Below, piece by piece: positions 15,300-19,173 of a stretch of 64,000 bases of DNA. Position numbers and translations under genes: made by a program. The stretch covers positions 868,001 through 932,000 of the forward strand of contig JPOM01000001.1 in NCBI GenBank assembly GCA_000733915.1, in the 5' to 3' direction. Source of the stretch: Caulobacteraceae bacterium PMMR1 (lineage in GTDB: Bacteria > Pseudomonadota > Alphaproteobacteria > Caulobacterales > Caulobacteraceae). The notes beneath the pieces were generated by a model, which worked only from the letters and a program-made list of their open reading frames with translations, was not told the DNA's origin and did not search any database. Within the stretch, counting starts at the first letter, position 1. Each line of letters begins with the position of its first letter.

Positions 15300-16385
15300 T
15301 CAGGCCGCGGGCTTGGGGCGGCGCAGGCGCGCCAGACGCCGGAGGCGGCGCCAGAACCGGCTCTTCTCCGGGTCGGGATAGGGGTCGAGGTTGCGGACGA
15401 ACTCCTCCGCGCAGGCGCGCCAGGAGAACTGCTCGGCGAAGCGGCGCACGACGGCGCGGTCGAGCTTCAGGCAGGCCAGGCACGCCGCCCTGAGGTCCGC
15501 ATCGACCGCGCCGGCGTTGGAGCCCGGGATGAGGTCGATGGGGCCCGGCGCCGGATAGGCCGCCACTGGCGCGCCCGCGGCCATCGCTTCCAGGATCACC
15601 AGGCCGAAGGTGTCGGTGAGCGAGGGGAAGACGAAGACGTCCGCCGCGGCGAAATAGGCCGCCAGCTCCTCCCCGTACTTGGGTCCGGTAAAGACCGCCC
15701 TGGGGTACTTCTCGCGGAGCTGATCGAGCTGGGGCCCGCCGCCGACTACGACCTTGGAGCCCGGCAGGTCCTGCTCGAGAAACGCCTCGATGTTCTTCTC
15801 CACCGCCACGCGCCCCACGTTCAGGAACAGCGGCCGAGGCAGGTCCCGCACCTCGGCCGGCCACTCGGTCTGCGGTCGCGGGCGGAAGAGCTCGGTGTCC
15901 ACGCCCCGCGTCCAGGGCGACAGATTGCGAAAGCCGCGCCTTTCCAACTCCTCGCGCATGGTGGGGGTGGCCACCATCACCCGTCCGGACGGCGCGTGGA
16001 ACCAGCGCATGTAGGCATAGCCCGCCGCGCTGGGCACCGGCAGGCGGGCGGCGACGTACTCCGGGAAGCGCGTGTGGTAGCTGGTCGTGAAGGGCAGCCG
16101 CCACTCCAGGCAGATGCGCCGCGCGGCAAGCCCGATCGGGCCCTCGGTGGCGATGTGGATCGCCTCGGGCTCGAAGGCCTTGAACCGTTCCTGCAGCGGC
16201 TCGTAGGCGTTCAGCGCCAGCCGGATTTCCGAATAGGTCGGCAGCGGCACGGTCTTGAACTGGTCGGGGGTCACCACCTCGACCTCGTGGCCCATGGCGC
16301 GGACCTCGGCCACGGTGCGGGTGAGGGTGCGCACGACGCCGTTGATCTGGGGCTCCCAGGCGTCGGTGGCCAAGAGGATGCGCAT
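15300..16385 (-). CDS. GT4 glycosyltransferase, Agt-like glycolipid synthase
   Basis: 361 residues, GT-B fold. It opens MRILLATDAWEPQINGVVRT, then IHIATEGPIGLAARR, SYHTRFPEYV and, in the donor domain, FLNVGRVAVEKNI and FVFPSLTDTFGLVILEAMAAG (the E-x7-E region). This pattern closely resembles alphaproteobacterial Agt enzymes that glycosylate diacylglycerol during phosphate limitation. The start ATG shares one base with the stop of the upstream phosphoesterase gene (TGATG), so the two are translationally coupled. Substrate identity is inferred from the pairing with a PlcP-like phosphoesterase; a generic GT4 role in polysaccharide synthesis is the alternative. Confidence 0.8.
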   Translation of the reverse strand: MRILLATDAWEPQINGVVRTLTRTVAEVRAMGHEVEVVTPDQFKTVPLPTYSEIRLALNAYEPLQERFKAFEPEAIHIATEGPIGLAARRICLEWRLPFTTSYHTRFPEYVAARLPVPSAAGYAYMRWFHAPSGRVMVATPTMREELERRGFRNLSPWTRGVDTELFRPRPQTEWPAEVRDLPRPLFLNVGRVAVEKNIEAFLEQDLPGSKVVVGGGPQLDQLREKYPRAVFTGPKYGEELAAYFAAADVFVFPSLTDTFGLVILEAMAAGAPVAAYPAPGPIDLIPGSNAGAVDADLRAACLACLKLDRAVVRRFAEQFSWRACAEEFVRNLDPYPDPEKSRFWRRLRRLARLRRPKPAA

Positions 16386-17218
16386 CAGGCGGCGGCCGCC
16401 TCCGGCAGGGCGGGGCGGGCCAGGCGGGCCTTGCGCGAAGCCCTTCGGGGCACGGGGGACCAATCGCGGCGCTTGGCCCAGTCGATCAGCTCCAGCCGGC
16501 CGTCCTCGTGCTCGACCAGCGCGGTGCAGCTCTCCACCCAGTCGCCGTCGTTGACGTAGAAGATGCCGCCGATGTCGCGCATCTCCGCCTTGTGAATGTG
16601 ACCGCAGATCACGCCATCGACCCCGCGCCGGCGCGCCTCCTCGGCCACGGCCTCCTCGAAGTTCTCGATGAACTGAAGGGCGTTCTTCACCTTGACCTTC
16701 ACATAGGCCGAGAGGCTCCAGTAGCCGAAACCCATCCGCCGACGGAGCAGGTTCCAATGCGTGTTCAGGGCCAGCAGCGCCCTATAGGACCAGTCCCCCA
16801 GGAAGGCCAGCCACTTGGCGTGGTTGACGACGCCGTCGAACTCGTCGCCGTGGGTGACGAGGAAGCGCCGGCCGTCGGCGGTCTCGTGGATCGCGTCGCG
16901 CGCCACCAGCACCCCGCCGAAATGCGCGCCGCAGAAGTCCCGCACCCGGTCATCATGGTTTCCGGGGATGTAGATGACCTGGACGCCCTTGCGGGCGAGA
17001 CGCAGCAGCTTTTGCACCACGTCGTTGTGCGCCTGGGGCCAGTGCCAGCCGCTTTTCAGCTTCCAGCCGTCGACGATGTCGCCGACCAGGTAGAGCCGCT
17101 CGCACTCGATACTGCGGATGAAGTCCAGCAGCAGCTCGGCCTGGCACCCGCGCGTGCCCAGGTGGATGTCGGAGATGAAGACGCTGCGGACCTTCAGCGT
17201 GTCGTCGGCCATGTCCAT
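16385..17218 (-). CDS. Calcineurin-like phosphoesterase, PlcP-like (COG2908)
   Basis: 277 residues with all dimetal motifs: ISDIHLG (Asp17, His19), LVGDIVDGW, IPGNHDD, THGDEFD and CGHIHKAE. COG2908 members are often labelled UDP-2,3-diacylglucosamine diphosphatase (LpxH), but Caulobacter uses LpxI for that step, and the alphaproteobacterial phospholipase C PlcP belongs to the same family. PlcP cleaves phospholipids to diacylglycerol when phosphate is scarce, and the coupled Agt-like gene would glycosylate that product. GGAGG lies 8 nt before the ATG at 17218. A Pho-box-like site lies 59 nt upstream. An LpxH-type role cannot be excluded by sequence alone. Confidence 0.75.
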   Translation of the reverse strand: MDMADDTLKVRSVFISDIHLGTRGCQAELLLDFIRSIECERLYLVGDIVDGWKLKSGWHWPQAHNDVVQKLLRLARKGVQVIYIPGNHDDRVRDFCGAHFGGVLVARDAIHETADGRRFLVTHGDEFDGVVNHAKWLAFLGDWSYRALLALNTHWNLLRRRMGFGYWSLSAYVKVKVKNALQFIENFEEAVAEEARRRGVDGVICGHIHKAEMRDIGGIFYVNDGDWVESCTALVEHEDGRLELIDWAKRRDWSPVPRRASRKARLARPALPEAAAA

Positions 17219-17276
17219 GCCGCAGGCCTCCGGATGTGACGCCGCCAGATCAAGCCCTTCTCGCTAGGGCGAGTCG

Positions 17277-17294
17277 GTGACGGCGCCATGACTG
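17277..17294 (-). promoter_or_regulatory. Pho-box-like site upstream of the PlcP/Agt pair
   Basis: Read on the minus strand, CAGTCAT-GGCG-CCGTCAC gives two 7-mers with the 11-nt period of PhoB sites (consensus CTGTCAT-N4-CTGTCAY); each 7-mer has one mismatch. The spacer is GC- rather than AT-rich. The site ends 59 nt before the phosphoesterase ATG, and CTAGCG about 9 nt further on could act as a -10. The site also overlaps the region upstream of the divergent aminopeptidase gene. Confidence 0.5.
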
Positions 17295-17362
17295 CTGCGC
17301 CGCGACCGATTGGCGGGGGGCGCGAATTGCGCGGGCGCGCCGGCAGGCCTAAACCGCCGCTC

Positions 17363-19173
17363 ATGCGCCAGACCTTCGACGAGCAGGCCGACCCCTCTTT
17401 CGGCCGCCAGCACCTGCCCCTGATCCGCGCGGAGATGCAGCGCCAGGGTCTGGACGCCCTGGTCATCCCGCACGAGGACGAGCATCAGAACGAGTACCTG
17501 CCGGCGGCCAACGAGCGCCTGGCCTGGGCGACCGGCTTCACCGGCTCGGCCGGGGCGGCGGTGATCCTGAAGGACGCCGCGGCGGTGTTCGTGGATGGGC
17601 GCTACACGTTGCAGGTCAAGAAGCAGGTCGATCCTACGCTGTTCGAGGCCTGGGACCTCGTCGAGGGCGGCGTGCCGAAGTTCATCGAGGAGCGGACGGC
17701 GGCCGGCCAGGTGATCGGCTACGACCCGCGCCTGCACAGCGCCGACGCCCTGGGGCACCTGCGCAACGCCGCGGCCCGCACCGGCGCGGTGCTGAAGCCC
17801 GTCGAGCAGAACCCGGTCGACCGCGCCTGGGACGGCCGTCCCGACCAGCCCCGCGCCGCCGTCTTGCCGCATGGGCTCGACTATGCGGGCGAGGCCAGTG
17901 CGGACAAGCGCGCCCGCGTTGGTCAGGCCATCGGCGCGGCCGGCGCCGATGTGGCGGTTCTGACCGCGCCGGCGTCGATCGCCTGGCTGTTCAACATCCG
18001 CGGCGGCGACGTGATCCGCTCGCCCCTGCCGCTCGGCCAGGCGATCCTGCGCCGGGACGGGACGGCGCGCCTGTTCCTGGATCCCGCCAAGGTGGGCGAG
18101 GATCTGCCGGCCTGGCTTGGCGATGAGGTGAGCCTGGAGCCGCCCGAAGCGCTGCAAGGGGCCCTGGCCGAGACCCGGGGCGTGCGCGTGCTGGTCGACC
18201 CGGCGGTGACGTCCGCCTGGTACTTCGACCGCCTCGCCGAGGCCGGGGCGACGGTGGTGCGGGCCCAGACCCCGCCGCGCTCCCCCGCGCCTGCAAGAAC
18301 CCGACGGAGATCGAGGGCGCGCGCCGGGCGCACCGCCGCGACGGGGCCGCGCTGGCGCGGTTCCTGCACTGGGTGGCGAGCGAGGCGCAGACGACCCTGC
18401 CCGACGAGGTGGAGATCGTGGCCAGGCTGGAGGCGTTCCGGGAGGCGACGGGGGCGCTGAAGGACCTCAGCTTCGACACCATCGCCGGGTCAGGCCCGAA
18501 CGGCGCGGTGGTGCATTACCGGCCCACGCACGCCACCAACCGGCGGATCGCCCCTGGCGAGCTCCTGCTGGTGGACTCCGGCGCCCAGTACCTGGACGGC
18601 ACCACCGACGTGACCCGCACCCTGGCCATCGGCGCGCCAAGCGAGGAAATGCGCCAGCGCTTCACCCTGGTGCTGAAGGGCCATATCGCCATCGCCCGCC
18701 TGCGCTTTCCCGCGGGCACGACGGGGTCGGCCATCGACGCGTTCGCGCGGCAGGCGCTCTGGGCGCACGGCCTTGACTATGAGCACGGCACCGGACACGG
18801 GGTGGGCAGCTATCTCGGGGTGCACGAGGGGCCGCAGCGCATCGCCAAGGCCCCGAACACGGTCGCCCTCCGGCCCGGCATGATCGTTTCCAACGAGCCC
18901 GGCTACTACAAGGACGGCCAGTACGGCATCCGGATCGAGAACCTGGTCGCCGTCACCGAGCCCGCCGACATCCCCGGGGGCGACAAGCCGATGATGGCGT
19001 TCGAGACGCTCACGCTGGCGCCGCTCGACCGCGCCCTGATCGAGACCGGCATGCTGACGGCGGAGGAGCGCGCCTGGGTGGACGCCTACCACGCCCGCGT
19101 CGCGGCGCTGATCGGGCCCGAGCTCGAGGCGCCCGTCGCGGCGTGGCTGGACGAGGCCTGCCGGGAGCTCTAG
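17363..19173 (+). pseudogene. pepP: Xaa-Pro aminopeptidase (M24B), interrupted by a single-base frameshift
   Basis: Two frames together encode a full-length (about 603 aa) aminopeptidase P. The N-terminal creatinase-like domains run from the ATG at 17363 to about 18267, ending RLAEAGATVVRAQ. The catalytic M24 domain resumes one frame over with DPAALPRACKNPTEIEGARR and carries the expected ligands: LLLVDSGAQY and GTTDVTR (Asp), GHGVG (His), SNEPGYY (Glu) and GIRIENLV (Glu). One base, most simply a G in CAGGAC, is missing near 18268. All else is intact, so this is either a sequencing error or a very recent inactivation. An ATG at 17288 would add an atypical extension. Confidence 0.85.

Follow-up and report, generated by a model that had tools for sequence, protein, structure and literature searches.

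Organisation of the plcP-agt locus

The genome of Caulobacteraceae bacterium PMMR1 is assembled as one contig of 2.67 Mb with an estimated completeness of 99.91%, and the window analysed here is a 64-kb stretch of it (positions 868,001 to 932,000 of contig JPOM01000001.1). Two adjoining genes on the minus strand of this window, together with a Pho-box-like site upstream of them, are considered here as a putative lipid-remodelling unit under phosphate control. The first gene, plcP (16385..17218, stop codon included), encodes a predicted calcineurin-type phospholipase C of the COG2908 family of 277 amino acids, assigned by Pfam domains, metal motifs and phylogeny. The second, agt (15300..16385), encodes a predicted diacylglycerol glycosyltransferase of glycosyltransferase family 4 (GT4) of 361 amino acids, assigned by Pfam GT4 domains and by motifs of the Agt/GTcp type. 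Base 16385 is common to the two, being the last base of the plcP TGA and the first base of the agt ATG, and this is the overlap of one nucleotide (nt) that the first-pass annotation had described. Upstream of plcP, on the same strand, lies the Pho-box-like direct repeat CAGTCAT-GGCG-CCGTCAC (17277..17294), which matches the consensus at 12 of 14 positions and takes first rank with a profile built from relatives. The whole promoter element, as delimited by conservation, extends over 17263..17294 and consists of the Pho box, an 8-nt spacer and a -10-like piece of the form YYTA (CCTA, 17265-17268). The match of 12 out of 14 and the spacing typical of PhoB sites (a repeat step of 11 nt) had both been given correctly in the first-pass annotation, but the distance to the plcP start had been put at 59 nt and is in fact 58 nt.

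Identity of the phosphoesterase

The phosphoesterase carries the Pfam domains Metallophos and Metallophos_2, and its metal ligand motifs are intact (DIH17, GD46, GNHD86, HGD123 and GHIH206). One rival explanation is that the protein belongs to lipid A synthesis as a UDP-diacylglucosamine pyrophosphohydrolase of the LpxH type, that its neighbour is an envelope-polysaccharide glycosyltransferase and that the Pho box is a coincidence. The structural data are in line with this proposal, as LpxH provides the best matches among solved structures (Z 18.8, 3.8 Å over 188 residues, 24% identity; the predicted PlcP model is itself of moderate quality, with a predicted local distance difference test score (pLDDT) of 75), and six of eight sequence matches in the PDB are LpxH. 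Fold comparison cannot separate PlcP from LpxH, because both share the fold, as expected for COG2908. Against the NCBIfam LpxH models, the protein scored 53.6 and 53.5 bits and reached neither of the cut-offs of 134 and 190.35. From 149 sequences collected, 72 were placed in a tree made by a quick search in which long LpxH branches were flagged; this tree has a single branch that parts 52 PlcP-like rows from 20 LpxH, with a Shimodaira-Hasegawa-like approximate likelihood ratio test (SH-aLRT) value of 100. The PlcP/LpxH label changes once on this tree, as against a mean of 17.7 changes for shuffled labels.

The first-pass annotation had named grouping with LpxH in a genome lacking LpxI as the outcome that would speak against it; on the tree, the protein of the window lies on the same side as the PlcP proteins of Sinorhizobium meliloti and Pseudomonas aeruginosa, and LpxI is present in the genome (149.5 bits). 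Lipid A synthesis therefore would not need the phosphoesterase gene. No gene of the PMMR1 genome reaches the LpxH cut-off, the sole match to the LpxH model being plcP itself (53.7 bits versus 190), and the control genome of Caulobacter vibrioides has the same pattern, with LpxI found and an LpxH-model match below the cut-off. Moreover, the phylum sample includes six genomes (G345, G351, G364, G385, G389 and G393) that have a true LpxH and, in addition, a second match below the cut-off; the second match of G351, which is the only one of the six in the tree, falls among PlcP. The phosphoesterase belongs to the PlcP clade and not to LpxH, and phospholipase C activity is predicted for it.

The earlier claim that the pair is generally mis-annotated was borne out in PLSDB, where 32 plasmid records have a PlcP match: all 24 named features are called 'UDP-2,3-diacylglucosamine diphosphatase', although six of these 24 are distant matches (35-43% identity) and perhaps not PlcP at all, and the other eight records have no feature. 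For the glycosyltransferase, among the 20 rows listed of 79 records, 18 are named 'glycosyltransferase family 1 protein' and two are without a feature. The LpxH name in these annotations is a further point on the side of the LpxH explanation. Nevertheless, the separate and fully supported clade, scores far under the LpxH cut-offs, the presence of LpxI, the genomes with both a true LpxH and a second, weaker match, and the Agt motifs and plcP-agt pairing described below make that explanation extremely improbable, and LpxH identity with a coincidental Pho box was rejected on these grounds.

Identity of the glycosyltransferase

The agt product has Pfam GT4 domains and contains the motifs GRVAVEKN (191-198) and FPSLTDTFG (253-261), together with His104 and Asp258. 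Thr159-Arg160, Glu266 and Trp322 were assigned by position only and not by direct comparison with the GTcp sequence. GRVAxEKN and FPSxTDTFG with its Asp, combined with a catalytic His, are described as motifs of the Agt/GTcp clade, which includes Agrobacterium Agt (PMC8231724). The Agt of the window shares the two sugar-binding motifs and the pair of His and Asp with SAR11 GTcp (PMC8231724) and Agrobacterium Agt atu2297 (PMC3972451). In the SAR11/Agrobacterium clade, as in the Agt of the window, Asp replaces the usual GT4 Glu, a likeness drawn through the published motifs (PMC8231724). Since the Agt sugar-binding motifs are described as common in GT4 (PMC8231724), the 49% identity of Agt to the protein encoded beside plcP in P. 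aeruginosa also counts for the clade assignment; that enzyme has been reported to be a glucosyl-diacylglycerol synthase by expression and assay (PMC8528852). The glycosyltransferase is most likely of the Agt/GTcp type and a predicted diacylglycerol glycosyltransferase, whose preference among glucose, galactose and glucuronate donors is not readable from sequence.

Conservation of the Pho-box-like site

Sites were scored as matches out of 14 to the model CTGTCAY-N4-CTGTCAY, and a stricter pattern, CNGTCAY-N4-CNGTCAY, was used in addition. It is the position of the site upstream of plcP, unlike its score, that is noteworthy, because shuffling the 210 nt that precede the gene produced a score of 12 only twice in 4000 trials, and shuffling the 144-nt intergenic stretch that holds the site did so in none of 4000. 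This stretch ends at the likely start (17363) of the divergent neighbour of plcP, an aminopeptidase-like gene with creatinase N-terminal domains. Genome-wide searches for PhoB sites were made with patterns rather than a matrix; over the 2.67 Mb the stricter pattern has one match, which is the site upstream of plcP, and the reversed control pattern also has one.

Among 149 Caulobacteraceae genomes searched for PlcP, 92 orthologs were found, in addition to one weak match (G086, E 2e-4) that was not counted. Promoter tests covered 90 plcP loci including that of PMMR1, with the orthologs of G019 and G032 left out. For comparison of the strands, L015 was dropped as its upstream region was too short and the site of PMMR1 was left out, giving 88 relatives. 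A score of at least 11 was found on the coding strand in 28 of these 88 and on the opposite strand in 2, and a score of at least 12 in 9 and 0, respectively. The mean best score over 89 upstream regions, that of PMMR1 included, was 9.9 on the coding strand, 9.0 on the opposite strand and 8.6 in shuffles. Genus means of the best score ranged from 8.0 to 12.7 and were at least 11 in seven genera (g1, g4, g10, g12, g14, g17 and g19). When aligned over 89 relatives from 15 genera, the element has a mean information of 0.99 bit over 34 positions, compared with 0.20 and 0.22 in the flanks. Element positions were picked in the relatives by Pho score with a bonus for YYTA; the spacer played no part in this choice, yet it is conserved. 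With a profile from the 89 relatives, PMMR1 excluded, the site of the window is the top match in the 64 kb (21.8 bits, with the runner-up at 12.6). Absence of the site from relatives, combined with a lack of phosphate response, had been named in advance as evidence against PhoB control; both the site and the promoter geometry are conserved.

Promoter geometry at plcP and at pst/pho loci

In the plcP promoter of the window, a TA pair lies 10 nt past the last half-site. When 31 pst/pho loci of the family were scanned whole and on both strands, 17 runs of Pho boxes (at least 12/14) were found in 16 loci, 16 of the 17 being on the same strand as the pst or pho gene. TA stands exactly 10 nt past the last half-site in 11 of the 17 runs, and every other offset occurs at most twice. 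The corresponding test at plcP was rerun without the YYTA bonus, since the earlier picks of position had favoured YYTA: when Pho score was the sole basis for choosing the best site, a score of at least 10 was reached by 44 of 89 relatives, and TA is at offset 10 in 38 of these 44. The half-sites CCGTCAC and CCGTCAT are also used by Pho boxes at pst loci. When only the 600 nt preceding pstC were scanned, 2 of 30 loci scored 13 and the others no more than 10; in PMMR1 the low value is due to pstS, which comes before pstC. Of the evidence that the predicted plcP promoter would function with PhoB, and is not a fortuitous match, the shared TA spacing is the strongest.

Part of the conserved element is peculiar to plcP. 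The pattern TCAY-N6-GWCAY-GCAATCA has 27 matches, one each in 27 of 99 genomes (0 for the reversed control), and all 27 lie 49-138 nt upstream of plcP and on its strand. The spacer sequence CAATCAG, between the Pho box and the -10, precedes plcP in 55 of 89 relatives within the family (L007, L047 and L072, for example) and in none of 29 loci of other families, and the longer CAATCAGCYTA was found in 0 of 30 pstC loci. These restrictions to plcP raise the question of whether the element, spacer included, is a plcP-specific promoter of another regulator that merely resembles a Pho box. The copy in the window, however, is without GCAATCAG and has CGACTCGC in its place, and still keeps the repeat and the spacing; the CAATCAG extension is therefore not needed for the basic promoter. 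CAATCAG is also missing upstream of plcP in 34 of 89 relatives, and the Pho boxes of pst loci share with the element half-sites such as CCGTCAC as well as the TA offset. Control by a different regulator is accordingly considered quite improbable.

Gene pairing, regulator and proposed pathway

In other families of the class, agt follows plcP within 210 nt in 27 of 29 loci. Among the 90 loci of the family the gap is at most 30 nt in 53, of which 51 have the same 1-nt overlap, and 31-499 nt in 20; in the other 17, agt is not within the stretch that was fetched. The PMMR1 genome encodes PhoB (361 bits, curated cut-off 296), and its gene adjoins open reading frames resembling phoR and phoU; the phoU-like frame is preceded by a 13/14 Pho box. 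A pst cluster is also present, with pstC identified by family search and with pstS, pstA and pstB; these last three, like phoR and phoU, were named from their translations, without a family search.

The pair is very probably a PhoB-activated plcP-agt membrane-remodelling operon of the Caulobacteraceae, in which co-transcription and the enzyme activities are predicted, as are PhoB binding, induction and the products on the basis of characterised relatives. When phosphate is scarce, PhoR would phosphorylate PhoB, which on the Pho box would recruit RNA polymerase to the -10 element about 10 nt downstream, giving a plcP-agt message. PlcP would then cleave membrane phospholipids into diacylglycerol and a head group that carries the phosphate. 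Through stop-start coupling, Agt would be translated off the same message and would glycosylate the diacylglycerol with UDP-glucose and/or UDP-glucuronate (UDP, uridine diphosphate), such that phospholipids would be replaced by glycolipids. The earlier proposal of a PhoB-controlled lipid-remodelling unit is upheld by the PlcP clade membership, the presence of LpxI and the conservation of the site in relatives.

Several observations weigh against PhoB control of this pair. Judged by score only, the Pho box is close to what chance would give in a window of this size: both strands hold nine sites scoring at least 11 and one scoring at least 12, the latter being the plcP site, and 40 dinucleotide shuffles gave means of 7.95 and 0.55 sites, respectively. 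A 12/14 site somewhere in the window consequently proves little, since 0.55 is expected per shuffled window as against the one seen. The opposite strand also scores often in relatives at the lower threshold, with 45 of 88 reaching at least 10 on the coding strand and 19 of 88 on the opposite one. Moreover, the genus mean of the best score is below 9.5 in g3, g5, g6, g18, g20 and g21, and in these genera the first half-site is frequently TTTCAY or similar. A start codon was not assigned to every Pho-box run of the pst loci, some of these loci being closely related (L178/L179), and the phoU-phoB Pho box of PMMR1 itself (13/14) is without TA at offset 10. In addition, the available part of a study of Caulobacter crescentus states that of 11 GT4 genes ccna_00792/00793 alone combined phosphate induction, dispensability and lack of an Escherichia coli homolog, and an agt ortholog of C. 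crescentus therefore failed at least one of the three (PMC6445935). Finally, 55 of the 149 family genomes have Agt without PlcP (two have neither), and from this, together with the scarcity of Pho sites at separate agt genes described below, it follows that Agt need not be phosphate-dependent.

Two further observations concern neighbouring genes. The divergent aminopeptidase-like gene appears to be spread over two overlapping frames of the plus strand (17288-18460 and 18373-19173, the second named from its translation), which suggests a frameshift or a sequencing error. Elsewhere in the PMMR1 genome, on the minus strand at L188:851-2377, an open reading frame that is phospholipase-D-like by its translation is divergent from the pstS-like frame, with which it may share a promoter region.

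Comparison with known systems

The arrangement is not new, and the PMMR1 pair adds to the published plcP-agt units. Comparison with P. aeruginosa was made through a plasmid-borne copy (L319), whose block is presumed from its cyclase neighbour to be PA3219-PA3218. Its PlcP and Agt are 53% and 49% identical to those of the window. The P. aeruginosa copy has three overlapping tandem 12/14 sites at -61 to -83, whereas PMMR1 has one, and its genes overlap by 4 nt rather than 1 nt. The published account of plcP-agt1 (PA3219-PA3218) describes Pho boxes upstream, and the gene order, the short stop-start overlap and the upstream Pho boxes are as in PMMR1; a second enzyme, Agt2, is reported to make the glucuronate lipid in that organism (PMC8528852). 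Pho boxes have also been reported upstream of plcP gene clusters in marine bacteria (PMC4796936). A plcP-agt operon with a similar proposed pathway has been described in the alphaproteobacterium Methylosinus trichosporium OB3b (PMC9239053), which belongs to a different family than PMMR1.

The S. meliloti plcP at locus L318, which is taken here to be SMc00171, encodes a protein 54-57% identical to PlcP of the window and has a Pho-box-like site (11/14) upstream. It has no adjoining agt, its neighbours being LuxR-type and homoserine-lactone synthase genes, and the diacylglycerol released in S. meliloti feeds betaine lipids, unlike the glycolipid route proposed for PMMR1. PhoB control of S. meliloti PlcP has been stated (PMC10315480).

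Under low phosphate, glycosyl-diacylglycerols are produced by C. crescentus, and in the available part of that report glycosyltransferases are identified for the ceramide branch only (PMC6445935). The PhoB regulon of C. crescentus is reported to include a phospholipase C, which is not further specified in the part of the source available (PMC11208175). A literature search in a limited collection, judged by title and abstract, gave no paper joining plcP, the Pho box and the Caulobacteraceae.

Agt, PlcP and a TetR-Agt fusion across the family

Agt is present in 147 of the 149 family genomes (E at most 1e-40) and PlcP in 92. This distribution would suit a situation in which glycolipids are mainly constitutive in the family, made from a basal promoter, with phosphate control weak or lost in PMMR1. 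The separate agt genes point the same way: in 18 fetched loci with agt apart from plcP, a 12/14 site occurs within 700 nt in two (L198 and L204), none reaches 11 and the others score 8-10, so that 16 of 18 are without a site above 10. The site of the window (12/14), on the other hand, is nearer to the Pho consensus than those of most relatives, judged by the genus means given above, and it keeps the spacing seen at pst loci. Mainly constitutive synthesis with weakened control in PMMR1 is for these reasons regarded as unlikely; for the family as a whole, the likely arrangement is that Agt is core and PlcP an optional addition gated by phosphate. Brevundimonas diminuta is presumably a member of the Caulobacteraceae. 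In this species, phosphatidylglycerol is cited as being replaced by glucuronate lipids in low phosphate (PMC4796936).

In part of the family Agt carries a further domain. An in-frame N-terminal extension of the TetR-type helix-turn-helix kind is present in 32 of 178 Agt loci, the other 146 being without it, and these 32 comprise 26 of 27 loci of g7, 3 of 3 of g14 and three public contigs (L212, L213 and L215). The genus g7 was taken to be Phenylobacterium because its fused protein is 97% identical to that of the named contig L212. Examples of the fusion are L059:2346-3746, L212:4865-6265, L329:895-2292, L327:889-2295 and L089:35-1432, with 27 further loci. Pfam TetR_N scored above its cut-off in all five fusions tested; the structural model of the fusion is poor overall (mean pLDDT 47), with residues 11-70 at 62-86. 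Directly before the start of the fused agt lies a palindrome, GACAG-N5-CTGTC, with 4 or 5 of the 5 arm positions paired in 26 of the 32; it is shifted by the chosen start in two fusions (L059 and L212) and weak in four. The 149 genomes hold the form GACAGTGNNRCTGTC 28 times, with 11 copies immediately preceding a fused agt and 17 elsewhere, and the reversed control 15 times. No wider regulon of this palindrome is claimed, because the 17 sites elsewhere compare with 15 in the control. In the window, agt overlaps plcP, leaving no room for a TetR-type domain. One g7 locus, L086, has the TetR-like extension in a different frame from Agt, possibly a natural loss of the fusion.

The fused TetR-Agt may be a lipid synthase that regulates itself; if true, an enzyme of membrane-lipid synthesis would govern expression of its gene according to its substrate or the state of the membrane. 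A literature search for TetR-glycosyltransferase fusions in the same limited collection gave nothing pertinent by title or abstract. A joint account of the family can be proposed tentatively, although it is rather doubtful as a whole: Agt would be the core synthase and PlcP an optional, PhoB-gated supplier of diacylglycerol, the two together forming the diacylglycerol branch among the phosphate-starvation glycolipids of Caulobacter, while in Phenylobacterium and g14 the fusion would read the palindrome at its own start.

The geometry common to the family, a Pho box with TA 10 nt on, may be used to predict further PhoB targets. For C. crescentus, plcP-agt is a candidate pair for the glycosyl-diacylglycerols of phosphate starvation. 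A pair of genes that PLSDB names as lipid A synthesis and a generic glycosyltransferase thereby becomes a testable phosphate-saving pathway.

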